Translations under genes and position numbers: made by a program | The notes under the pieces: model-generated | Databases searched by the model: none | The model's input: the letters and a program-made list of their open reading frames with translations, nothing else | Told to the model about the DNA's origin: nothing | Assembly (NCBI RefSeq): GCF_023283945.1 | Contig: NZ_JAKIKW010000008.1 | Location: 62,001 to 126,000, forward strand | Length of the DNA stretch: 64,000 nt | Direction of reading: 5' to 3' | DNA from: Shewanella gelidimarina | Lineage (GTDB): Bacteria; Pseudomonadota; Gammaproteobacteria; Enterobacterales; Shewanellaceae | Part shown: positions 14,564 through 54,637 of the stretch, one piece after another | Position numbering within the stretch: position 1 is the first letter of the stretch | Layout of the letters: every line of letters begins with the position of its first letter

Positions 14564-14794
14564 GTGCGACAATCAGACCAGATATTTCAATTCCCCCTCA
14601 ATATCAGCTACGAAGATTTCCTACCATACTATCGTGGACAAGTGACTAAAGTAGAAGTCGTTGACACCGCGGGTAGAACCTTATGGATCAGCGCCAGACA
14701 TTTTAGGCCATTTTTTACTCGTTCTGGGATCCGCGCCTACTTCGAAATGGTAGTTGATGGGCAAGGAAATTTGATTAGTCTTAATAAAAAATAG
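14564..14794 (+). CDS. DUF2835 family small protein
   Basis: A 76-residue protein recognisable as DUF2835: the FPLNISYEDFLPYYRG opening, the LWISARHFRPF centre and the GIRAYFEM region are typical. It has no signal peptide or membrane segment, so it is probably cytosolic. Function unknown; found mainly in marine gammaproteobacteria. Start is GTG at 14564, after AGAGAAAAGA. It follows pepN by 88 bases in the same direction and may be cotranscribed. Confidence 0.8.
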   Translation: MRQSDQIFQFPLNISYEDFLPYYRGQVTKVEVVDTAGRTLWISARHFRPFFTRSGIRAYFEMVVDGQGNLISLNKK

Positions 14795-15112
14795 AGTAAT
14801 TACTTAAAACGGTCGATTACTTTAAACGCACTGGTTTAGGTTTGTTTAATTTTAGATAAGGTATTGTTATTAAATAATATATAACCTGTAATTGAACACT
14901 TCTTTATATTATCTAAACCTGATTTAAATACACCCCCTCAAACACCACGCTGAATCCTTGCAAAATAGCTGAATCTATTAAAGATTTTCGATATTTCGTT
15001 CTTGCTCACTTCGTAAAAATGCTGTAACAATGGTGTTACCTGTACGCTAACAGTATGTTGGCTATCAATTCCAATAACAAAAGAATCCAGCAGGTTACGG
15101 AGAGAAGCTAAA
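14795..15112 (+). promoter_or_regulatory. Promoter region of the export cluster
   Basis: This 318-base gap holds no gene I can support. It is AT-rich in its first half and contains a dyad GTAACA (15024-15029), four bases, TGTTAC (15034-15039), located 74 bases before the DUF1302 start, a plausible operator position. A GGAGAGAAG ribosome site immediately precedes the start codon at 15113. Confidence 0.45.
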
Positions 15113-17161
15113 ATGAAAAAGGTTAAAAACGGCTTTAACAAGTCGACGCTCGCTTTGGGGATAGTTGCGGCGCTCGGATTTGGCATATCAACAAGTGCCA
15201 ATGCAGTCTCATTCAATTGGGGCGAAGTAGATGGAACATTTGATTCGACCTGGACTGCTGGTGCGAGTTGGCGAGTAGAAGAGCGAGATTGGAACAATCA
15301 GATTGGTAAGGTTAACCAACCGCAATTCGATTGGGCTGGTTATTCGGCCTTTGGTAATACTAAATACAGCTCTGCTGAGATTTGGGCACAACCAGGTTCC
15401 TATTCAAGTAACGGTGATTTAAGTAATTTACTGTATTCGCAAGGCGACACCACTTCTGAAATATTTAAAGGTTTGCACGAATTATCTTTAAAATATAAGA
15501 ATTTCGGTGTTTTTGCGCGTGGTATGTACTTTTATGATCGTAAGCTCAATGATGGTAACTATGACTTTAATGACCCGCTAACGGGTAAAGAATTTGATCC
15601 TTGTGAAGATAGCAAGGCATCAGAAGTTCAGTGTAAAGACATTCGCTTACTTGATGCGTTCGTTTACGCCGATTTCGATTTTAATGATGGTGCTAACCCA
15701 CTATCCGTCCGTGTCGGTAATCAAGTCGTTTCTTGGGGTGAAAGTACCTTAATTGCTCACGGTATCGGCTCGATTAACGCCGTTGATTTAAACATCTTGA
15801 ATGCACCTGGTGCTGAGCTTAAAGAAGCTTTTAGGCCTCAGGGCATGGTTTGGGCATCTTTTGGCATAACCGATGACTTGTCAGTCGAAGGTTTTTATCA
15901 ATATGATTGGCAGCCAATTTGGGTACCTACACCTGGGTCTAGCTTCTCAAGTAATGACTTTGCCGGTTATGGCGGTTATAACCAAAATGCTCAGTTAGGC
16001 TTTAACTCAAATCCTGACATGAATCTTGATTTCCTTTTGTCTGAGTATAATACCCTCGTGGGTATGGTTGGCTCAGGACAAGTAGACGGCGCGACTCTGG
16101 CTCAGCTTGCATTAGCTTATCCCACTAAAGCCACCTTGGTTGAAGATGATGCTTCAGCCAGTGATGACGGCCAATGGGGTGTTAAAATTGGTTATTATGC
16201 GCCTCAACTGGGTGAAACCGAATTTGGTTTGTATTACATGAACTATCATAGCCGTCGTCCATTGATTAGTGGTACCACGGCTAATTTCACTCAAGAAGCG
16301 ATTGGCAGAGACTTACAACGCCTAGGTGGAAAAGCGCAGTCTGGCGAAATGATGACGCGTGAAGATCTATTGGCATTGGAAACCTTTTCAAAAGCACAAA
16401 TTGTTTATCCTGAAGATATTCAGTTAATGGGCTTTAGCTTCAACACGCTTGTGGGAGACACTTCAGTAGCGGGTGAAATTGCCCATCGCTTAGATGAACC
16501 GCTGCAGATTGATGATGTTGAATTGTTGTTTGCAGCAATGCCACAGCAACTCGCAAATGCGGGTTTACGACCTGATTTGGACGGTATTTCACAGGTTGAA
16601 AATTATGGTCCGGGTCAATATGCCGAAGGCTTCATCCGTTTAGATACCACTCAAGCTCAAACAACATTTACCCATCTATTTGGCCCTACACTGGGCACCG
16701 ATAACCTGACGATGCTGGCTGAAATCGGTGGCGTTTGGATCCATGATATGCCGAGCTTTGATGAGCTTCGCTTAAATGGACCTGGCACCGCACGTTCAGG
16801 TGGTAACCCTGATATGCCTGGTATTATTGAGGCAGTGCATAACGGTCCTGAAACAAATCCATTCCCAACCGACTTTGCTTGGGGTTATCGTTTAGTGGCT
16901 AAGGTCGACTATAACAACGTGTGGGGTGGGATAAACATCGCACCAAGAGTGATTTTCTCTCACGATGTTGATGGTATTACACCTGATCCAATGTTCCTAT
17001 TTACTGAAGGTAAGAAGTCGGTCGCTTTAGGCGTCAACTTCGATTACCAAAGTCGCTGGAGCGCTGATGTCTCTTACAACGCTTTCTTTGGCGGCGTAGG
17101 AACGACTAATACTATGGCTGATCGAGACTATGTGTCGTTCAACATTAAGTACTCAATCTAA
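15113..17161 (+). CDS. DUF1302 outer-membrane protein, first gene of export cluster
   Basis: A 682-residue DUF1302 protein. It has a clear signal peptide (basic MKKVKNGFNK, then LALGIVAALGFG, likely cleavage after STSANA near 32). The mature part is rich in aromatic and Gly/Asn residues with alternating hydrophobic strands, and the last residues are NIKYSI, a terminal strand of the type seen in outer-membrane beta-barrels. Family members are predicted outer-membrane proteins that co-occur with DUF1329. The cluster is tight: 18 bases to the DUF1329 gene. Function unknown; I infer the outer-membrane exit or surface component of the system. An internal insert around 250-350 is rich in Gly, Asn and Ser. 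Confidence 0.85.
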   Translation: MKKVKNGFNKSTLALGIVAALGFGISTSANAVSFNWGEVDGTFDSTWTAGASWRVEERDWNNQIGKVNQPQFDWAGYSAFGNTKYSSAEIWAQPGSYSSNGDLSNLLYSQGDTTSEIFKGLHELSLKYKNFGVFARGMYFYDRKLNDGNYDFNDPLTGKEFDPCEDSKASEVQCKDIRLLDAFVYADFDFNDGANPLSVRVGNQVVSWGESTLIAHGIGSINAVDLNILNAPGAELKEAFRPQGMVWASFGITDDLSVEGFYQYDWQPIWVPTPGSSFSSNDFAGYGGYNQNAQLGFNSNPDMNLDFLLSEYNTLVGMVGSGQVDGATLAQLALAYPTKATLVEDDASASDDGQWGVKIGYYAPQLGETEFGLYYMNYHSRRPLISGTTANFTQEAIGRDLQRLGGKAQSGEMMTREDLLALETFSKAQIVYPEDIQLMGFSFNTLVGDTSVAGEIAHRLDEPLQIDDVELLFAAMPQQLANAGLRPDLDGISQVENYGPGQYAEGFIRLDTTQAQTTFTHLFGPTLGTDNLTMLAEIGGVWIHDMPSFDELRLNGPGTARSGGNPDMPGIIEAVHNGPETNPFPTDFAWGYRLVAKVDYNNVWGGINIAPRVIFSHDVDGITPDPMFLFTEGKKSVALGVNFDYQSRWSADVSYNAFFGGVGTTNTMADRDYVSFNIKYSI

Positions 17162-17179
17162 ATCACAAGGACAATAAAA

Positions 17180-18544
17180 ATGAAAAATCTTGCGATATTG
17201 TCTGCAGCAGTCATTCTGGCTTTAGGCGCAACCAGCGCTTTAGCTAAAGTCTCTGATGTAGAAGCAGCCAAATTAGGGTCTGAGTTTACGCCACTCGGCG
17301 CTGAGAGAGCAGGTAATAAAGATGGAAGTATCCCAGCTTGGGATGGTGGGATCACTGAACCTGTCGCCGGTTACAGTAAGGGCATGCATCACCCAGACCC
17401 ATTTCCAACTGACAAAATCGAATTTACCATTACTAATGCTAACAAAGACAAATTCAAAGCATTTTTAAGTGACGGGCAAATTAAATTATTTGAGCTTTAT
17501 CCTGAAACATTCAAAATGAATGTTTATCAAACTCGTCGTTCAGCATCAGTACCGCAGTTTGTATATGATGCAACTATGGCTAACGCAACACGCGCCGAGT
17601 TAATTGATGGCGGTAACGGTATTACGGGAGCCTCTATCGGTATCCCTTTCCCAATGCCTGCCAATGGTCTAGAAGTGATTTGGAACCATGTACTGCGTTT
17701 TCGTGGTGTCGATATCAAAACCTCTCGTAGTCAAGCAGCACCAACAGCAGGTGGTAGTTACACACTGGTTGAGACTGGTGAAGAGATCCGTTTTCAATAT
17801 TCTCGTCCAGAGATGACATTGGACAAACTCGCAAAAGAAAATACGCTGTTTTTCTTTAAACAAGTGGTGATTCAGCCAGCTCGTTTAGCGGGTACGGCAC
17901 TGCTTGTAAAAGAAACAATGGATCAAGAGAAGTTGCCACGGCAAGCATGGACTTACAACACGGGCCAACGTCGTGTACGTAAAGCGCCAAATGTGGCATT
18001 TGACACGCCAGGTACGGTTTCTGATGGTCTAAGAACGACTGATGATTTTGATATGTTTAACGGTTCTCCAGTGCGTTACAACTGGGAGTTGGTCGGCAAG
18101 CAAGAGTTATATATTCCTTATAACGATTATAAGCTGCACTCGGACAAGATTACCTATGATCAAATTGTCACTCCTGGGCATATCAATCCTGAGTTTGTTC
18201 GTTACGAAAAACATCGTGTATGGGTTGTTAAAGCAACGCTAAAAGAAGGTATGCGTCATATCTATAAAGCGCGTACTTTTTACATTGATGAAGATTCGTG
18301 GCAGGTATCGGTGGCTGATATCTATGACAACCGAGATGAGCTGTACCGTGTGGCAATTGCTCATGGATTGAACTACTACGAAGTACCTACTCAGTGGAGT
18401 ACTTTAGAAGTATTCCATGACTTACAGTCTCGTCGCTATATCGCAATGGGTCTAGATAATGAAGGCCGTATGTACGACTTTGATGCAAAACTGAGCGAAA
18501 GTAATTTCACTCCCGCTGCACTAAGACGCGCTGGTATTCGTTAA
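17180..18544 (+). CDS. DUF1329 periplasmic protein, export cluster
   Basis: A 454-residue DUF1329 protein with a signal peptide (MKNLAILSAAVILALGATSALA, cleavage near residue 22). Typical family sequences are LGAERAGNKDGSIPAWDGG near 38-56, WNHVLRFRG near 169-177, and LHSDKITYDQIVTPGHINPE near 317-336. I recall DUF1329 being placed with LolA/LolB-like folds, which would suit a periplasmic carrier of a hydrophobic molecule; I could not check this. It lies 18 bases after the DUF1302 gene with its own AAGGA ribosome site. A hairpin follows before the next gene. Confidence 0.85.
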   Translation: MKNLAILSAAVILALGATSALAKVSDVEAAKLGSEFTPLGAERAGNKDGSIPAWDGGITEPVAGYSKGMHHPDPFPTDKIEFTITNANKDKFKAFLSDGQIKLFELYPETFKMNVYQTRRSASVPQFVYDATMANATRAELIDGGNGITGASIGIPFPMPANGLEVIWNHVLRFRGVDIKTSRSQAAPTAGGSYTLVETGEEIRFQYSRPEMTLDKLAKENTLFFFKQVVIQPARLAGTALLVKETMDQEKLPRQAWTYNTGQRRVRKAPNVAFDTPGTVSDGLRTTDDFDMFNGSPVRYNWELVGKQELYIPYNDYKLHSDKITYDQIVTPGHINPEFVRYEKHRVWVVKATLKEGMRHIYKARTFYIDEDSWQVSVADIYDNRDELYRVAIAHGLNYYEVPTQWSTLEVFHDLQSRRYIAMGLDNEGRMYDFDAKLSESNFTPAALRRAGIR

Positions 18545-18552
18545 CCCACTTA

Positions 18553-18575
18553 AAGAGGGGCACTTTGCCCCTCTT
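18553..18575 (+). terminator. Hairpin between DUF1329 and YCF48 genes
   Basis: AAGAGGGGC (18553-18561) pairs perfectly with GCCCCTCTT (18567-18575) around ACTTT. Only ATATTTAAA follows, not a real T-run, so it is more likely a partial attenuator or mRNA 3'-end stabiliser inside the operon than a full terminator. It lies 20 bases before the next start codon. Confidence 0.55.
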
Positions 18576-18594
18576 ATATTTAAAGGAAGTCTGT

Positions 18595-19611
18595 ATGTCG
18601 TTTAGCATGCTTCGATTTATCTCTCTTTTGAGTGTCGCCAGTATTTTTAATTCTTCTGCTTTATTAGCGCAAGAACAAACACTAGAACAACAAATTCAAC
18701 CCCTTGCTATCCATTCGTTAGTCCTCGATATTGTTCAATATGGTCATACTTTGGTTGCGGTTGGCGATCGTGGCCACGCATTTGTTTACGATAAAAAATG
18801 GCAGCAAGTCAACACTCCTACATTTGCGCTATTAACCAAAGTATTTTTTGTATCTGAAGATGAAGGTTGGGCCGTTGGCCATGACGCTACGATTATTCAT
18901 ACCGAAGATGGCGGCTTGACTTGGCAGTTACAGATGCAGGCCCCTGAAATTGAAAAACCTTTTTTAGATCTACACTTTTTTGATAAAGATAAGGGTATTG
19001 CAATCGGAGCGTATGGTCTTTTTTATCGCACAAATGACGGCGGTGAAAACTGGATTAGTGAGTACCATCAAGAGCTCCTATTTGAAGAGGATGTCGCTTA
19101 TCTTGAAGAATTAAAAGCAGAAGACGAAGCACTGTATTTGTCAGAGCGTAACAGCTTACTACCGCATTTTAATCGTGTGGTGTCCGTTTCGAATGATCTA
19201 CTCATTATGGTTGGCGAGCTGGGCCTTGTCGCTATATCGAGCGATCAAGGTGTCCATTGGCAGAAAAACGATTTTCCCTACGAAGGCTCACTCTTTAATG
19301 TAAGTGTCGTCGATAATAGTGTTTATGTTATGGGGCTTAGAGGGCATCTTTTTAAGTCAAATAAAGACTTCGCAACATGGCAGGAAATTATGTTACCTAT
19401 CGACTCGACAATTAATGCAGGGATCCTTTTGGAGGATTCTGTATTGCGTCTAGTGGGTAATGCTGGCGTTATTATTGATGTTACGGAAAACGGGGACGCG
19501 CAACTGGTTGAACAACGACAGGGCGAAAATCTAGTCGCAATTGCTAAAGACTCCACGGGTATGTTGTGGGTTGCAGGCAATAAAGGTCTCATCAAGTTAG
19601 AACAAAAATAA
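18595..19611 (+). CDS. YCF48/HCF136-like beta-propeller protein, export cluster
   Basis: A 338-residue secreted protein with a signal peptide ending near FNSSALLA (about 23). It carries BNR/YCF48-type repeats: IHTEDGGLTWQLQ near 105, YRTNDGGENWISE near 147, SSDQGVHWQKND near 213, and weaker ones after. YCF48 (HCF136) assists photosystem II assembly in phototrophs; in heterotrophs this domain recurs beside MMPL permeases and probably acts as a periplasmic assembly or binding factor. The ATG at 18595, behind AAGGAAG, is preferred to one at 18565 that lies inside the preceding hairpin and spoils the signal peptide. The next gene starts 13 bases later. Confidence 0.82.
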   Translation: MSFSMLRFISLLSVASIFNSSALLAQEQTLEQQIQPLAIHSLVLDIVQYGHTLVAVGDRGHAFVYDKKWQQVNTPTFALLTKVFFVSEDEGWAVGHDATIIHTEDGGLTWQLQMQAPEIEKPFLDLHFFDKDKGIAIGAYGLFYRTNDGGENWISEYHQELLFEEDVAYLEELKAEDEALYLSERNSLLPHFNRVVSVSNDLLIMVGELGLVAISSDQGVHWQKNDFPYEGSLFNVSVVDNSVYVMGLRGHLFKSNKDFATWQEIMLPIDSTINAGILLEDSVLRLVGNAGVIIDVTENGDAQLVEQRQGENLVAIAKDSTGMLWVAGNKGLIKLEQK

Positions 19612-19624
19612 TAGGACCTGACTT

Positions 19625-21928
19625 ATGTTAGATAAACTCGTAAATGGCATTGAAACCTATCTCTTCAGGCATCGCGCTTTCGTTATTTTCTTATTTATTA
19701 TCACCACCTTGTTTTTAGGTTTGCAAGCAAGCAATCTGAAAATGGATGCGGCTTTTGTTAAAAACATTCCACTAAACCACAGTTACATGAAAACCTATTT
19801 GAAACACCAAAAGCAGTTTGGTGGAGCTAATAGCGTTATGGTTGCGGTCGAAGACACTAGCGGAAATATCTTTAACGCTAACTTTTTTGATGCGCTCAAA
19901 AATGTTCACGATCAACTATTTTTTATTCCGGGCGTAGATAGGGCACAGGTAAAATCGCTCTTTTCCCCATCGACTCGTTTTACTGAAGTGGTCGAAGATG
20001 GTTTTGCCGGTGGGCCCGTTATTCCGGCAGACTTTAGGACGACTGACGAAGGCTTAGCTATCGTTCGGGGCAATATTGAGAAAGCAGGAGTTGTCGGTCG
20101 ACTTATTGCTGAGGATTATTCAGCTGCAATGGTGAGTGCCCAGTTAATGGATTTCGATCCTCAAACTGGTAAGCCTCTTGACACGTTAGCGATTGCAGAG
20201 CAGTTAGAGCAAGAATTAAGAGCTCAATACGAAACTGACGATATAAAAATTCATATTATCGGCTTCTCCAAAATGGCTGGCGACGTTGCTGAAGGTGCAA
20301 AAGGCGTATTACTATTTTTCTTAATCGCAATTGTCGTCACCGCGATCATGGTTTACTTTTTCTCTAAATCAATCGTACTGACTATATTACCGCTTGTTTG
20401 CAGTCTTACCGCAGTTGTCTGGCAACTTGGTTTGTTAACCGTTGTTGGCTTTGGTTTAGACCCCATGTCCATCTTGATACCGTTTTTGGTGTTTGCGATA
20501 GGCGTTAGTCATAGTGTACAGATGATTAATGCGGTCAAGCGCAGAGTCAACGATGGGCAAAGTACTAAAGCTGCGGCGGCGCTTGCGTTTAGAAGTTTAT
20601 TGATCCCCGGCGGCGTGGCTCTCCTATCAGATACGATAGGATTTATGACGCTACTGACGATTGATATTGGTATTATTCGCGAACTCGCTATTTCAGCCTC
20701 TCTTGGTGTCGCGGTGATTATTCTGACCAACCTCATTCTGTTGCCACTTGTCATTTCTTATACGCAGGTTCAGGCGCAAAAGAACACTGCACCTGTTAAA
20801 GCTAATAATATTTGGGTCAAACTGTCAAAGTTTGCAACGCCTAAATATGCAATATGGGTTTTGCTCATTACAGCAGGTTTATATGCTGTTGGTTTACAGC
20901 AAGCGAACAAAATGAAAATAGGTGATCTTCAAGGCGGTGCTCCTGCACTGCACTTAGATTCTCGATATAATCAGGATACTTTTTTCATTACCGATAAGTT
21001 TACAATTACCACCGATGTAATGACTATTATCGTAGAAGCATTCCCTGAAGCTTGTACCTACCACTCAGTATTAACGCAAATTGATGAATTTGAGTGGCAA
21101 GTGAGTAACACTGTGGGTGTTGAATCAACGGCAAGTCTGGCCTCTGTCGCTAAAAGAGTAAACGCTGGCTTTAATGAAGGTAATCCTAAGTGGAAAGTCT
21201 TGCCTAGAAACACTGCCAGTCTTGTGCAAGCAGTAGGACGAGTGCCAACAACTTCAGGTTTATTAAACAGCGATTGTTCTGTTATGCCAGTGTATCTTTT
21301 CTTAAAAGATCACAAAGCAGAAACCATTGAAGTTGTTATCAACAAGGTTAATCAACTGCAACAGCAGATGAATAATGAGCAGCTTACCTTTAGGTTGGCA
21401 TCGGGTCCTGTTGGCGTGATGGCTGCCACTAACGAAGCGGTTGCTGAAGCGCAGCTGCCAATGATGCTTTATGTCTATGGTGCCGTATTTGTGTTGTGCT
21501 TGATTAGCTTCCGCTCTTTACGGGCAACCATTGCCGTTATTTTACCTTTGTATGTGGTATCAACCTTAGCGCAAGCATTGATGACTCAGCTTGATATTGG
21601 TCTTGCGGTAAGTACATTACCGGTTATTGCCTTAGGCGTCGGCATTGGTGTTGATTACGGGATCTATATTCTGTCGACTATGGCAGTAAGATTAAGAGAT
21701 GGTATGCCAGTTCAACAAGCCTACTACGAGGCGTTAGTGGAGCGAGGCAGTGCGGTTATCTTTACCGGTTTAACACTTGCGATAGGGGTGAGTACTTGGT
21801 TCTTCTCTGCCCTTAAATTCCAAATGGACATGGGTATTTTGCTCACCTTCATGTTTTTGGTGAATATGCTAGGTGCTATCATTATCCTTCCGGCGATAGC
21901 CGCGGTATTTTGGCGGCAACCCAAGTAA
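19625..21928 (+). CDS. MMPL/RND-superfamily permease, export cluster
   Basis: A 767-residue inner-membrane RND-type exporter. It has an N-terminal transmembrane helix (FVIFLFIITTLFLGLQA near 20-36), a periplasmic loop, five or so helices from about 230 to 380, a second helix-plus-loop unit, and a final helix group from about 615 to 760. The repeated MMPL signature is seen in LVFAIGVSHSVQMINAVKRR (near 289-308) and GVGIGVDYGIYILS (near 673-686), and the acidic Asp in GVDYG fits the proton-relay position. It is about the size of hydrophobe exporters rather than tripartite drug pumps. Last gene of the cluster, 13 bases after YCF48, closed by a strong terminator. Confidence 0.88.
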   Translation: MLDKLVNGIETYLFRHRAFVIFLFIITTLFLGLQASNLKMDAAFVKNIPLNHSYMKTYLKHQKQFGGANSVMVAVEDTSGNIFNANFFDALKNVHDQLFFIPGVDRAQVKSLFSPSTRFTEVVEDGFAGGPVIPADFRTTDEGLAIVRGNIEKAGVVGRLIAEDYSAAMVSAQLMDFDPQTGKPLDTLAIAEQLEQELRAQYETDDIKIHIIGFSKMAGDVAEGAKGVLLFFLIAIVVTAIMVYFFSKSIVLTILPLVCSLTAVVWQLGLLTVVGFGLDPMSILIPFLVFAIGVSHSVQMINAVKRRVNDGQSTKAAAALAFRSLLIPGGVALLSDTIGFMTLLTIDIGIIRELAISASLGVAVIILTNLILLPLVISYTQVQAQKNTAPVKANNIWVKLSKFATPKYAIWVLLITAGLYAVGLQQANKMKIGDLQGGAPALHLDSRYNQDTFFITDKFTITTDVMTIIVEAFPEACTYHSVLTQIDEFEWQVSNTVGVESTASLASVAKRVNAGFNEGNPKWKVLPRNTASLVQAVGRVPTTSGLLNSDCSVMPVYLFLKDHKAETIEVVINKVNQLQQQMNNEQLTFRLASGPVGVMAATNEAVAEAQLPMMLYVYGAVFVLCLISFRSLRATIAVILPLYVVSTLAQALMTQLDIGLAVSTLPVIALGVGIGVDYGIYILSTMAVRLRDGMPVQQAYYEALVERGSAVIFTGLTLAIGVSTWFFSALKFQMDMGILLTFMFLVNMLGAIIILPAIAAVFWRQPK

Positions 21929-21938
21929 ATGAAACAAG

Positions 21939-21967
21939 AAGAGAAGCTAAAGCTTCTCTTTTTTTTT
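21939..21967 (+). terminator. Intrinsic terminator closing the export cluster
   Basis: AAGAGAAGCT (21939-21948) pairs with AGCTTCTCTT (21951-21960), followed by seven T residues. It lies 11 bases after the MMPL stop codon. Confidence 0.9.
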
Positions 21968-22190: not shown

Positions 22191-25100
22191 ATGGCCTTGA
22201 AAGATGCAATGCCTTCAGTACTACTAGAAAATGTCGTTAACCTTATTAATTCAAAAGTGCCTCATTCACACGCAAAACAAGTAGAACAGTTTGCGACTTG
22301 CCTATACGCGCATATGTCGAAAGACGATCTCAATGCCCGTAATGACAGTGACCTTTATGGTGCTGTTTTGAGTCAGTGGAATGCCCTTAATAAAACCTCC
22401 GTTGGGGAAGGGCACATTCGTGTGTTTAACCCGAGCCAATCGAAGCATGGTTGGGAATCGACCCATTCGATCATTGAGATCATTCAACCCGATATGCCTT
22501 TCCTAGTCGATTCTGTCGGCATGGCAATTAATCGACTCGGTATTACGGCGCACATGATGCTCCATACCCCAATGGCTATTGAGCGCAAAGATGGCTCAGT
22601 CATTCAAGTCAGTTATAGCGCTGACGAACAAGCTGATGTTGATAAAGTTGCCGTCTTTTTGATTGAAATTGATAGACAGAGTAGCGAAGCGGATATTAAA
22701 GCCCTCACCAAAGAGATTGAGTCGATAATTGCGGACGTCGCAATATCGGTCAAAGATTGGAATGCAATGTCAGCCAAGTTGGGCGAGACGATTACTGAAC
22801 TGGCTAACCGACCTTATCCTGGTACTAAAGCAGAGTTAAGTGAAGCGACCAAATTTCTCGATTACCTCAATAACCACCACTTTACCTTATTAGGTTACAG
22901 ACGTTACGATTTACGTAAAGTGGAAGGTGATTTAGAGCTAGTTGCAGATAAGACAACAAGCTTGGGCTTGATGACTAAATCGGCAAAAACCAATACTGAA
23001 ACCGGTCTATTACTGTCTAACTTCTCTGAAAGTGCCCGCAAAGAAGCGCTTGATACAAGTTTGTTGGTATTGACTAAAAGTAGTGAAAAGAGCCGAGTTC
23101 ATCGTCCAGCCTATGTCGATTATATTGGTGTTAAGCGTTTTGACGATAACGGTAACGTTATTGGCGAAGATCGTTTTATCGGTTTGTACGCCTCTAACTT
23201 ATATAACCGTAGCCCGCGTGAGATCCCATTACTTGCTGAGAAAGTACAGCGCGTTCTTGACCGTTCAGGACTAACACCTCGTTCTCACGATTATAAAGCA
23301 TTAATGCATATTCTTGAGACGTTACCACGTGATGAGTTAATCCAGGCAAATGTAGAAGAACTCGCCCGTATTGCACACGGTGTACTTGAGATGCAAGACC
23401 GGGACAAACTAAAATTGTTTGTCAGAAAAGATGGCTTTGGTCGATTCTTATCTTGCTTAGTATATGTGTCTAAAGACCGTTACAACACTAAGCTACGTGA
23501 AGATACTCAACGGATTTTAGCTCAGCATTTTAATAGTAGTGAAGATGTTGAGTTTACAACATATTTCTCAGAGTCTTCTTTGGCTCGTACTCATTACATT
23601 ATCAAAGTTGATAACAATAATATGGATGTTGATGTGGCAGCGATAGAGAATAATTTGACTGAAGCAGCTCGTTCTTGGGAAGACAAATTGGGCAGTGCTT
23701 TAATTAGTGCTCAAGGTGAAGAAATTGGAACAAGCTTGGTTAAGCGTTACGTAAATGCGTTTCCTCGTAGCTATAAAGAAGATGTACTACCCAGTTCTTC
23801 TGTCGTTGATATTCAACAGCTTGAAGCATTAGATGACAATCATAAACTGGGCATGCTGTTTTATCAGCCACAGGAAACAGCGCTTAAAAATAGCAAAGTA
23901 CGTCTAAAGTTATTCCATAAAGATGAACCGATCCACCTTTCTGACGTGTTACCTATGTTGGAGAACTTTGGCTTACGTGTCATTAACGAACGTCCTTATG
24001 AAGTCATCAATGCTGACGGTGCGACTTATTGGATCCTAGATTTCCTCATGACAACACAAGCTGTTGCCACTGATAATTTAGCCGATAGCCAAGAGCGATT
24101 CCAAACTGCGCTGTCGCAAGTGTGGAAAAAAGAGCTTGAAGATGATGGTTTTAACCGCTTGGTATTATCAACCGGTCTGACGGGTCGTGAAGTGTCTGTA
24201 CTGCGAGCCTACGCTAAATATATGCGTCAAATTGACTCTACCTTTAGCCAAGCCTACATCGAAGAAACGTTTTCTAGCTATCCGCAAATAGCTGATTTAC
24301 TAGTTAAAATGTACATTCGAAAATTCAATCCAAAGTTGAAGACACGTACATTAAACAAGTTTATTGAGCAGATTGATCTTCGTCTCGATGACGTTTCAAG
24401 CTTAGATGACGACAGAATTATTCGCCGCTACCTTGATTTAATCAATGCAACCAATCGTACTAACTTCTATCAAGTTAGTGCTTCAGGCAGCGCAAAATCA
24501 TATATCTCATTCAAGTTCGCACCAGAACTTATCCCTGAGATGCCAAAGCCATTACCTAAGTTTGAAATCTTCGTTTATTCACCTCGGGTTGAAGGTGTAC
24601 ATCTGCGTGGCGGTAAAGTGGCTCGTGGTGGATTGCGTTGGTCTGACAGAAGAGAAGATTTCCGAACTGAAGTGCTTGGCCTTGTAAAAGCACAGCAAGT
24701 TAAGAACACGGTCATTGTTCCTGTTGGCGCTAAAGGCGGTTTTGTTTGTAAGCAACTGCCAACTGACGGCGGCCGTGAAGCCTTTTTTGCCGAAGGACAA
24801 GAGTGCTATCGTCTATTTATTCGTGGCTTACTCGACATTAGCGATAACATTATTAATGGCGAGCTTGTAGCCCCTGTAAATGTGGTTCGACACGATGAAG
24901 ATGACCCATATTTAGTCGTTGCAGCCGATAAAGGTACCGCGACGTTCTCAGATATTGCCAACGAAATCGCTGACGAATACAACTTCTGGCTAGGCGATGC
25001 GTTCGCTTCTGGTGGTAGTAACGGTTATGACCATAAGAAGATGGGAATTACTGCACGTGGTGCTTGGGAATCTGTTAAACGTCATTTTCGTGAAATGGGT

Positions 25101-27035
25101 GTTAATTGCCAAACAACAGACTTTACCTGTTTAGCTGTCGGCGACATGGCAGGTGATGTATTTGGTAATGGCATGTTGTTGTCTAAGCACATTCGCTTAG
25201 TTGCTGCTTTCAACCACATGCATATCTTTATTGACCCCAATCCTGATGCTGTTAGCAGCTATGTCGAACGTGAGCGTTTATTCGCATTGCCTCGTTCAAG
25301 CTGGGAAGATTACAACGCCGAGTTAATCTCAAAAGGTGGCGGAATATTCCTGCGTTCTGCGAAGTCTATTCCACTCTCTGCAGAAATGAAGAAGATGTTA
25401 GGCACTCAGAAAGCCTCTATGCCACCACTTGAGTTACTCAAAGAGTTACTCAAAATGCAGGTTGATTTGCTCTGGAATGGCGGTATTGGAACTTATGTTA
25501 AGGCCACAAGAGAAACACATGCAGAAGTGGGCGATCGCGCCAATGATTCTATCCGTGTCAACGGTAACGAAGTTCGAGCCAAAGTTGTTGGTGAAGGCGG
25601 CAACTTAGGCTGTACTCAATTAGGTCGTATTGAATATTGCGCTAATGGCGGCCGTATGAATACCGACTTTGTTGATAACGTGGGTGGTGTTGATTGCTCT
25701 GATAACGAAGTCAACATTAAGATTTTACTTAATGCGCTAGTTGCTGATGGCGAAATGACCGTTAAGCAACGTAACCGCTTGTTAGTAGAGATGACGGATG
25801 AAGTTAGCCGTATCGTTCTGCAAGACTGTAAAGATCAGACGCGTACTATTTCTGTTACTCAGGTGCGTGGTGCAGAGCAATTAAAAGATCAAATTCGTTT
25901 TATCCATTACCTTGAAAAAGAGGGTAAGTTGGACAGAGCGCTTGAGTTCTTACCTAATGAAGATGAGCTTGCTGATCGTTTAGTTAATGGCAAATCACTG
26001 ACTCGTCCTGAGCTTTCTGTGCTCGTTGCTTACGCGAAGATGGTGCTTAAAGAGCAATTATTGACTACAGAGATCACTGAAGATAGTTTCTTAAGTCAGT
26101 TATTGGTTGCCTATTTCCCGCAGCAGCTTCAAGAGAAGTACACGGTCAATATGGCGGCTCATCCACTGCGCGGTGAAATTATTGCTACCTCACTAGCGAA
26201 TGAACTCGTTAATGACATGGGTCTTAATTTTGTTCAACGTATGCAAGATGAGACAGGTGCCTCAGTAGCTGAAGCTGCCATTTGTTACACTATGGCTCGC
26301 GAAGTGTTTGGTTTGGCTGATTTAACTAAATCAATTACTGATCTAAATGGCATTATCCCAGCTGTTGTACAGTGCGAAATGTTACATCAGTTACGACGCA
26401 ATATTCGTCGTGCTAGCCGTTGGTTCTTACGTCATCGTAACCGTAATCTAAATATTGAACAGACTATTGAATTCTTTAGACCTGTCTTTGATGAGCTTAA
26501 AGCAAATGTACATCAATATATGGTTAACGATGAAGTCGAAGGCATACGCGCAGAGTCTGATGCACTGATTAAAGAGGGTGTACCAGAAGATGTAGCAATG
26601 GTTGTCGCTAACGTGAGCACGTTATTCTCCGCGTTAGATATTGCACAAATTTGTGATCTCGAGGCCAAGCCAGTTCCTTTGGTTGCGGAAACTTACTTTA
26701 AGTTAGGCGCTAGTGTAGATCTACATTGGTTCCTCGAACAAATTAGTGCACAACCGGTAACGAATCATTGGCAAGCACTGGCAAGAGCCGCATTTAGAGA
26801 AGAGCTTGATTGGCAGCAGCGTTCACTGAGTTCAGTTGTCTTGAGAACTTGTACTGAAAGCTGTGATGCTAGTAAGATCATTTCAGAATGGATTGAATCA
26901 AATCAAGGCTTGTTGGAACGATGGTTCCATATGCTGGCTGATTTCAAGACTTCGCAAAGCCATGAGTTTGCTAAGTTCTCTGTAGCCCTACGTGAACTTA
27001 ATCTTTTGATCCTTCATTGTGAAGGTCAAAAGTAA
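22191..27035 (+). CDS. gdhB: NAD-specific glutamate dehydrogenase, 180-kDa class
   Basis: A 1614-residue large NAD-dependent glutamate dehydrogenase (GDH-180 class), normal length. It oxidises L-glutamate to 2-oxoglutarate and ammonia, mainly in amino-acid catabolism. The N-terminal half holds ACT-like regulatory domains. The catalytic core carries RGGLRWSDRREDFRTEV near 819-835, VPVGAKGGFVCKQ near 844-856 (substrate-binding lysine), and the Rossmann part with VGEGGNLGCTQLGR near 1131-1144. A long helical C-terminus follows. Start ATG at 22191 behind AAGGAA. It stands alone, with a terminator on each side. The gene is absent from the corresponding E. coli region. Confidence 0.95.
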   Translation: MALKDAMPSVLLENVVNLINSKVPHSHAKQVEQFATCLYAHMSKDDLNARNDSDLYGAVLSQWNALNKTSVGEGHIRVFNPSQSKHGWESTHSIIEIIQPDMPFLVDSVGMAINRLGITAHMMLHTPMAIERKDGSVIQVSYSADEQADVDKVAVFLIEIDRQSSEADIKALTKEIESIIADVAISVKDWNAMSAKLGETITELANRPYPGTKAELSEATKFLDYLNNHHFTLLGYRRYDLRKVEGDLELVADKTTSLGLMTKSAKTNTETGLLLSNFSESARKEALDTSLLVLTKSSEKSRVHRPAYVDYIGVKRFDDNGNVIGEDRFIGLYASNLYNRSPREIPLLAEKVQRVLDRSGLTPRSHDYKALMHILETLPRDELIQANVEELARIAHGVLEMQDRDKLKLFVRKDGFGRFLSCLVYVSKDRYNTKLREDTQRILAQHFNSSEDVEFTTYFSESSLARTHYIIKVDNNNMDVDVAAIENNLTEAARSWEDKLGSALISAQGEEIGTSLVKRYVNAFPRSYKEDVLPSSSVVDIQQLEALDDNHKLGMLFYQPQETALKNSKVRLKLFHKDEPIHLSDVLPMLENFGLRVINERPYEVINADGATYWILDFLMTTQAVATDNLADSQERFQTALSQVWKKELEDDGFNRLVLSTGLTGREVSVLRAYAKYMRQIDSTFSQAYIEETFSSYPQIADLLVKMYIRKFNPKLKTRTLNKFIEQIDLRLDDVSSLDDDRIIRRYLDLINATNRTNFYQVSASGSAKSYISFKFAPELIPEMPKPLPKFEIFVYSPRVEGVHLRGGKVARGGLRWSDRREDFRTEVLGLVKAQQVKNTVIVPVGAKGGFVCKQLPTDGGREAFFAEGQECYRLFIRGLLDISDNIINGELVAPVNVVRHDEDDPYLVVAADKGTATFSDIANEIADEYNFWLGDAFASGGSNGYDHKKMGITARGAWESVKRHFREMGVNCQTTDFTCLAVGDMAGDVFGNGMLLSKHIRLVAAFNHMHIFIDPNPDAVSSYVERERLFALPRSSWEDYNAELISKGGGIFLRSAKSIPLSAEMKKMLGTQKASMPPLELLKELLKMQVDLLWNGGIGTYVKATRETHAEVGDRANDSIRVNGNEVRAKVVGEGGNLGCTQLGRIEYCANGGRMNTDFVDNVGGVDCSDNEVNIKILLNALVADGEMTVKQRNRLLVEMTDEVSRIVLQDCKDQTRTISVTQVRGAEQLKDQIRFIHYLEKEGKLDRALEFLPNEDELADRLVNGKSLTRPELSVLVAYAKMVLKEQLLTTEITEDSFLSQLLVAYFPQQLQEKYTVNMAAHPLRGEIIATSLANELVNDMGLNFVQRMQDETGASVAEAAICYTMAREVFGLADLTKSITDLNGIIPAVVQCEMLHQLRRNIRRASRWFLRHRNRNLNIEQTIEFFRPVFDELKANVHQYMVNDEVEGIRAESDALIKEGVPEDVAMVVANVSTLFSALDIAQICDLEAKPVPLVAETYFKLGASVDLHWFLEQISAQPVTNHWQALARAAFREELDWQQRSLSSVVLRTCTESCDASKIISEWIESNQGLLERWFHMLADFKTSQSHEFAKFSVALRELNLLILHCEGQK

Positions 27036-53917: not shown

Positions 53918-54637
53918 ATGATAATCAATGCCAAAGGCCCTGCAAGTTTTGCAGAGAAATATATTGTGCGATCCATTTGGGACAATAAATTTCCCCCCGG
54001 CTCTATCTTGCCAGCTGAACGTGAGTTGTCAGAGTTAATCGGTGTAACCCGCACAACATTAAGAGAAGTACTGCAACGTTTAGCACGTGATGGGTGGTTA
54101 ACCATTCAACACGGAAAACCTACCCGAGTGAATAATTACTGGGAAACGTCTGGACTCAATATTCTTGAGACTATTGCCGAACTTGATCCCGATGGATTTC
54201 CTGAATTAGTCGATCAACTGTTGTCTGCACGTAGCAGTGTTAGTGGAATTTACTTCCGCGGAGCCATTCGCAACAACCCCGAACAAGCGGCTGAAGCATT
54301 ATCAAAGCTAGGCGAGCTTGAAGATACTGCACAGGCTTATGCCGATTTCGATTATGAATTACAGCATACACTGGCTTTTTCATCGGGTAATCCGCTGTAT
54401 GTATTAATCCTTAATGGATTTAAAGGTCTATATAGCAGAGTCGGTCGCTATTACTTTTCTAGTGCAGAAGCCCGCACATTAGCAATGGACTTTTATAAGC
54501 AGTTGCAACAGTTAGCAATCGATAAAAATCATGCTGATGTAGCGCTATTAATGCGAACCTACGGTATTAATAGTGGCATTATGTGGCAGAGTTTACGCGA
54601 CAATATGCCGGTAGAACTTGGTCACTCTAATACATAA
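53918..54637 (+). CDS. fadR: Fatty acid metabolism regulator FadR
   Basis: A 239-residue GntR-type regulator, same size as E. coli FadR. The N-terminal winged helix (LPAERELSELIGVTRTTLRE near 30-49, REVLQRLARDGWLTIQHGKP near 48-67) is nearly identical to E. coli and binds DNA; the C-terminal seven-helix domain binds long-chain acyl-CoA, releasing DNA. It represses fatty-acid degradation genes and activates fabA in relatives. The C-terminal domain is not longer than in E. coli, unlike the extended Vibrio form. Start ATG at 53918, giving MIINAKGPASFAEKYI. Confidence 0.96.
   Translation: MIINAKGPASFAEKYIVRSIWDNKFPPGSILPAERELSELIGVTRTTLREVLQRLARDGWLTIQHGKPTRVNNYWETSGLNILETIAELDPDGFPELVDQLLSARSSVSGIYFRGAIRNNPEQAAEALSKLGELEDTAQAYADFDYELQHTLAFSSGNPLYVLILNGFKGLYSRVGRYYFSSAEARTLAMDFYKQLQQLAIDKNHADVALLMRTYGINSGIMWQSLRDNMPVELGHSNT

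Follow-up and report, generated by a model that had tools for sequence, protein, structure and literature searches.

The DNA analysed here (hereafter the window) is a stretch of 64,000 nucleotides from Shewanella gelidimarina (contig NZ_JAKIKW010000008.1), in which positions 15113-21928 of the + strand carry a four-gene operon corresponding to the cassette AmeABCD, a kind of transport system already published in 2018 (PMC6394551). Indeed, the operon encodes (i) a DUF1302 protein of 682 amino acids (gene A, 15113-17161; Pfam, 526 bits), predicted to be an outer-membrane Occ/OprD-like beta-barrel, (ii) a DUF1329 protein of 454 amino acids (gene B, 17180-18544; Pfam, 507 bits; LolA_like, 36 bits), predicted to be a periplasmic carrier with a LolA fold, (iii) a YCF48-like protein of 338 amino acids (gene C, 18595-19611; PSII_BNR, 60 bits) of a beta-propeller family, predicted to be periplasmic, and (iv) an inner-membrane RND/MMPL transporter of the HAE3 kind of 767 amino acids (gene D, 19625-21928; Pfam MMPL, 90 bits). 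All four genes lie on the + strand, their Pfam matches each exceed the gathering score, and their products are the counterparts of AmeA, AmeB, AmeC and AmeD, respectively.

The original prediction, made from the sequence alone, had described four tightly spaced genes of these families in this order, which the open reading frame (ORF) coordinates and the Pfam matches bear out, with gaps of 18 (A-B), 50 (B-C) and 13 nucleotides (C-D). The strong terminator that it placed after the operon is also present, as an intrinsic terminator at 21936-21963 (+ strand) with a 12-bp stem followed by a T run. Gene C starts with the ATG at 18595, the longest reading beginning with a TTG at 18565, and signal-peptide-like N-termini are found on A, B and C. 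Each of the four genes is present in a single copy in the genome. Neither an HlyD-type membrane-fusion protein (Pfam search of the four genes) nor a TolC-type channel is encoded in the operon. Gene D is directly followed by gdhB (NAD-glutamate dehydrogenase, 22191-27035) and only then by pyrD, so that the location between pepN and pyrD given in the original prediction holds with gdhB interposed.

Relation to characterised systems

In Castellaniella defragrans, AmeABCD consists, in order, of a DUF1302 protein, a DUF1329 protein (LolA superfamily), a COG4447/YCF48 protein and an HAE3 RND transporter; deletion of ameABCD lowered the tolerance to unfunctionalised monoterpenes, modestly increased the accumulation of Nile Red and rendered the cells more sensitive to high limonene, the presence of acetate notwithstanding (PMC6394551). 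The window operon shares the four kinds of gene, their order and their predicted locations, with four genes on one strand, RND-type loops in D, a predicted barrel in A, a LolA superfamily assignment for B and a predicted periplasmic YCF48-like protein C. The settings differ, AmeABCD lying in an inducible monoterpene island whereas the window operon occupies a vertically inherited chromosomal locus next to pepN. In Pseudomonas putida, growth on Tween 20 requires PP_0765 (DUF1302), PP_0766 (DUF1329), PP_2018 and PP_2019, for which a co-folding analysis predicted a strong C-D contact and weak A-B and B-D contacts (PMC10866462). These are the same four kinds of protein as in the window, but there A and B are encoded at one locus and C and D at another. 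A 'Nanopod' cluster of the benzene-degrading strain ORM2a codes for a porin-like protein, a DUF1329 protein, a YCF48-related protein and an MMPL protein, for which hydrocarbon movement in an unknown direction was proposed (PMC13101534); it differs from the window operon by additional universal-stress and hypothetical genes and by its phylum (Desulfobacterota). According to a report cited in the same article, deletion of a DUF1329 gene in Delftia impaired growth on phenanthrene (PMC13101534).

More distant likenesses can be drawn with two groups of transporters. HpnN (HAE3) belongs, like D, to the RND superfamily and moves a lipid from the inner membrane, but it works without dedicated periplasmic and outer-membrane partners. 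HAE1 pumps of the AcrAB-TolC type combine, like the operon, an inner-membrane RND protein with periplasmic and outer-membrane parts; these parts are a membrane-fusion protein and a TolC-type channel, whereas the window encodes a LolA-fold carrier and an Occ-like barrel.

Distribution, predicted structures and age of the locus

The four families occur together across genomes. In a sample of 299 genomes drawn from the phylum (proteobacteria), full-length DUF1329 (at least 100 bits) was found in 45 genomes and D (E-value up to 1e-60) in the same 45. DUF1302 was present in each of these 45 (scoring 100 bits or more in 44 and 88 bits in one) as well as in two fragmented assemblies, and C in 44 of the 45 and in one other genome, while independence would predict about 7 shared genomes. 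The 45 genomes span 26 genera and are related, so that they do not represent 45 independent events; the co-occurrence signal is nevertheless strong, and the independent distribution that would have spoken against a single system, as the original prediction had supposed it, was not encountered. DUF1302 is absent from all 14 control genomes, including that of E. coli. Within Shewanella, DUF1329 was detected in 95 of 97 genomes, and because of this near-constancy the system probably does something basic, beyond solvent tolerance. The two Shewanella genomes that gave no DUF1329 match are G056 and G072. In G129, G148 and other f36 genomes (loci L117 and L118), weak DUF1329-like and DUF1302-like matches lie a few kb apart, and the stretch that holds them also gives a remote match resembling D (20-21% identity); this is possibly a distant version of the ABCD system.

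The single-chain AlphaFold model of A (mean predicted local distance difference test, pLDDT, 88) is closest to Occ/OprD porins (Z about 21-22, namely about 21.9; 3.5 A over about 300 residues), including uptake porins of the Occ group such as OpdK and BenF, and matches AlgE more weakly. A is thus predicted to be an outer-membrane barrel, in agreement with the original prediction for DUF1302. A sequence search of the PDB with B returned a chance match only, and a fold search was needed to place it. The model of B (mean pLDDT 91) matched LolA3 of Porphyromonas gingivalis (Z 23.4, 237 residues, 2.2 A) and the DUF1329 crystal structure 4z48 (Z 20.5), with LolB and LolA proteins ranking next, all matches being limited to residues 159-453. 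As modelled, B has the fold of the LolA lipid carriers. It shares this fold with LolA/LolB over the matched residues and differs from them by an additional N-terminal region of about 150 residues, outside the matches, and by its partner, an RND protein in place of their ABC transporter. The role of shuttle that had been proposed for DUF1329 becomes plausible with this fold.

In D, hydropathy gives 13 hydrophobic peaks, compared with the 12 membrane helices of an AmeD-type RND protein, together with two large loops on the periplasmic side (approximately residues 37-227 and 428-610), as expected for the superfamily. MmpL and other RND proteins usually relay protons through an Asp-Tyr pair. Two residue pairs of D are invariant across 27 sequences, namely S295-H296 in transmembrane helix (TM) 4 and D677-Y678 in TM10, and judged from this conservation TM4 appears to carry Ser-His in place of the usual Asp-Tyr relay. 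D did not reach the cut-off of the model for the hopanoid transporter HpnN (TIGR03480, 66.3 bits; cut-off 751.85) or of that for the sterol transporter BstA (NF045600, 21.5 bits; cut-off 1400).

The order A-B-C-D was kept in every one of the first 30 Shewanella loci and in roughly a hundred loci altogether, which exceeds chance. The wider arrangement pepN-A-B-C-D-gdhB is found in Shewanella, Ferrimonas, Paraferrimonas, Rheinheimera, Arsukibacterium, Alkalimonas, Pseudoalteromonas, Colwellia, Glaciecola, Alteromonas and others; pepN-A-B-C-D also occurs in more distant gammaproteobacteria (L099, L101, L102, L109, L235), where two of the regions read have gdhB 7-11 kb downstream. In a tree of D that compared the window with other genomes and plasmids, leaving out AmeD of C. 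defragrans, the Alteromonadales copies, that of the window included, form a lineage of their own, and the plasmid-borne copies cluster apart with pseudomonad-like ones. The G+C content of the operon matches its surroundings. The locus is vertically inherited, ancient and nearly universal in its group. The original prediction had suggested that the operon might have been inserted between pepN and pyrD. A recent insertion of an accessory transport island would fit the occurrence of the cassette on plasmids and the lack of DUF1302 in the 14 controls, but it is rejected as highly improbable because of the synteny (conserved across Alteromonadales and, in the looser form pepN-AB-CD with gdhB further on, elsewhere), the position of D in the tree away from the plasmid copies and the unremarkable G+C content. 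In Shewanella surugensis (L069 and L135), gdhB is retained downstream, and pepN was not found upstream within the fetched DNA. Distribution, synteny and fold together tie the abundant but functionally unassigned families DUF1302 and DUF1329 to a single transport system of the envelope.

Two modules, regulatory sites and neighbouring genes

The cassette itself is known, and what is new here is its make-up of two modules, the FadR-like operators in relatives and the fatty-compound neighbours of extra AB copies. The B-C gap exceeds the A-B gap in nearly all loci, and in the window it contains a strong hairpin (18553-18575, + strand; -17.5 kcal/mol, z -2.55), overlooked in the original prediction, that separates the modules AB and CD. 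A hairpin better than 20 of 20 shuffled sequences was found in 99 of 101 distinct B-C gaps, including that of the window; in 44 of these gaps it is followed by a T-rich tail, and in many relatives outside Shewanella (40 of the 101 gaps) its left arm reads CGGYTG. The arms show compensating changes in non-Shewanella relatives (CGGCTGAC/GTCAGCCG and CGGTTGGC/GCCAACCG, in the B-C gaps of L062-L201). The pattern ACGGYTGRC-N2-8-GYYARCCGT has a single place in the genome of each of four non-Shewanella relatives and maps to the B-C gap in both genomes that could be mapped directly (G313 and G358); the window genome has one match, located elsewhere than the B-C gap. Candidate roles for the hairpin are those of a partial terminator, an attenuator or an mRNA stabiliser.

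Several loci carry AB without an adjoining CD (L082-L084, L100, L103, L104), and two carry CD at pepN without AB (L233, L234). DUF1329 also outnumbers D in several genomes, with two to six copies per D (at least 6 to 1 in G150, 4 to 1 in G309), and in P. putida the split into two loci falls at the B-C boundary, where the window has its hairpin (PMC10866462). The operon may accordingly be read as two modules, AB facing the substrate and open to duplication, and CD serving as a shared engine, which suggests a way for one pump to serve several outer-membrane modules.

The neighbours of the additional copies offer clues to the substrate. An extra AB pair of some Shewanella (L082) has a lipoxygenase gene downstream and a divergent AraC-type regulator, an arrangement that suggests oxidised fatty acids as substrate. 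Other AB pairs, likewise lacking a directly adjoining CD, lie beside an alkylsulfatase gene (L094; in L239, a second C-D pair lies a few kb off) or beside a gene for an AMP-binding ligase (L103), and a further AB-CD region (L240) includes genes for a GMC alcohol dehydrogenase and an aldehyde dehydrogenase. Plasmid-borne ABCD cassettes adjoin genes for a VOC-family (possible ring-cleavage) protein and an aldehyde dehydrogenase in Massilia sp. WG5 and a homogentisate dioxygenase gene in Cupriavidus necator N-1 (pBB2), and one in P. putida has pobA nearby. A second DUF1302-DUF1329 pair is likewise present in some Shewanella at L083 and L084. On plasmid pBHB of Comamonas sp. 7D-2 (L242), an MMPL gene of the D family is closely flanked by transposase genes, and neither DUF1302 nor DUF1329 is annotated next to it.

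The fatty-acid regulator gene fadR is encoded in the window outside the operon (53918-54637, + strand; TIGR02812, 382 bits, above the cut-off) and in every relative tested. Genome-wide counts of the FadR consensus with up to 3 mismatches were not enriched over a reversed control, and a weight matrix with matched upstream controls was used in their place. One part of the matrix came from sites that precede, in these genomes, genes recognised by eye as acyl-CoA synthetase, lipase-like and other genes; the other part came from E. coli sites. Upstream of A, sites scoring 11 or more were found in 30 of 76 loci and sites scoring 18 or more in 8 of 76. The corresponding counts were 1 and 0 of 73 upstream of pepN and 7 and 0 of 78 after D, and the regions before B, C or D gave scores of 11 or more in 0-2 of 78-80 loci; throughout, loci from the same genus cannot be taken as independent. 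Alteromonas, Glaciecola, Bowmanella and Lacimicrobium keep the site AACTGGTACGATTTGTT or a close variant of it. Taken together, the FadR-like sites in relatives and the genes beside paralogous copies restrict the substrate to a testable class, and they support the link to lipid or fatty-acid-derived compounds that had been mentioned in the original prediction.

Proposed mechanism and alternatives

We consider it probable that the operon encodes a proton-driven RND system of the AmeABCD type that carries fatty-acyl compounds or hydrophobic amphiphiles like them across the envelope. In such a system, D would couple proton flow in the inner membrane, by way of the TM10 Asp-Tyr and TM4 Ser-His pairs, to the passage of a hydrophobic molecule into the membrane or out of it; C would dock on the periplasmic side of D; the LolA-like protein B would shield the molecule across the periplasm, between D and A; and the Occ-like barrel A would pass it through the outer membrane. 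Characterised RND/MMPL proteins move their substrates outward, and because of these habits and of the dye data on Ame the outward direction is slightly favoured. One machine carrying a hydrophobic substrate from the inner to the outer membrane had been postulated in the original prediction; the single system is supported, and of the two directions import is nearly as likely as export.

Several observations weigh against this reading. Barrels of the Occ type commonly serve uptake; import would account for the monoterpene and Tween phenotypes no less than export would; and in C. defragrans the change in Nile Red was slight, with no difference between strains in real-time efflux (PMC6394551). The score of D against the HAE3 model TIGR00921 (155 bits) stays below the cut-off of 351.9. 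The promoter of A in the window has no convincing FadR site, its best score (5.8) lying within the shuffled range, and a fatty-acyl substrate for the window operon is argued from relatives and neighbours.

Among the alternatives, the one to be taken most seriously, though we hold it to be the less probable account, is an importer in which A would admit hydrophobic carbon sources such as fatty acids and lipid esters, B would carry them through the periplasm and C-D would, at the inner membrane, load or extract them so that they can be catabolised. It would explain the requirement for the P. putida homologues on Tween 20 (PMC10866462), the plasmid cassettes within aromatic catabolic gene sets, the resemblance of A to OpdK and BenF, and the Delftia phenotype as cited in PMC13101534. 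The FadR-like sites upstream of A in relatives would also fit it, the same genomes having such sites before genes identified by eye as an acyl-CoA synthetase gene and a lipase-like gene. It is opposed by the outward action of characterised RND/MMPL proteins and by the ameABCD deletion, after which cells gained rather than lost Nile Red and were sensitive to limonene despite acetate (PMC6394551). A general solvent or xenobiotic efflux pump, kept as a defence and standing apart from lipid physiology, would agree with the monoterpene tolerance conferred by AmeABCD (PMC6394551), but we regard it as unlikely: presence in 95 of 97 Shewanella genomes and at one fixed locus across Alteromonadales fits a housekeeping substrate better, the operon lacks a membrane-fusion protein and a TolC-type channel, and FadR-like sites occur in relatives. 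Slightly more doubtful still is the delivery of lipids or lipoproteins to the outer membrane, with B acting like LolA/LolB and A displaying or inserting a lipidated product such as an esterase, so that loss of a surface esterase would underlie the Tween 20 phenotype. The closeness of the B fold to LolA/LolB (LolA3 above all) and the hydrolase activity formerly suspected for PP_0765 and PP_0766 (PMC10866462) would favour it; the RND partner and the catabolic settings on plasmids indicate small hydrophobic molecules instead, and no co-conserved lipoprotein gene was seen at the locus. Returning to the fatty-acyl transporter, we suggest tentatively, and with clearly less assurance, that the pepN locus is, in Alteromonadales, a FadR-linked housekeeping route of the envelope for fatty acids or their esters, in which one C-D engine would serve several interchangeable A-B modules, each devoted to another acyl or alkyl compound, and the hairpin would set the ratio of the modules.

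Further features lie upstream of the operon. A promoter/leader block of about 110 nucleotides (15002-15112, + strand), with TTGCTC at 15002-15007 followed by TGTAAC and extending to the start codon, is far more conserved within Shewanella than the remaining intergenic DNA (alignment of 26 upstream regions). It includes the palindrome GTAACAATGGTGTTAC (15024-15039), a candidate operator over the -10 element that is conserved in Shewanella. As a genome-wide operator this candidate was discarded, since its pattern occurs once in the window genome, compared with 3 occurrences of the control, and defines no regulon. A PsrA-like palindrome, TTTCAAtC-N4-GTTTGAAA, is present upstream of A in some Shewanella, and the window lacks its right half. 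No Rfam family was found in the leader, the hairpin or the operon, the only match, between the terminator and STnc400, being weak and well short of the gathering score of that family, and no papers were found on the presumed S. oneidensis locus tags of the operon. Lastly, a short ORF below the length limit of the ORF lists ends at 14794, between pepN and A, and its stop codon and the next bases, TAGAGTAATTACTTcAAACG, are kept across Shewanella.

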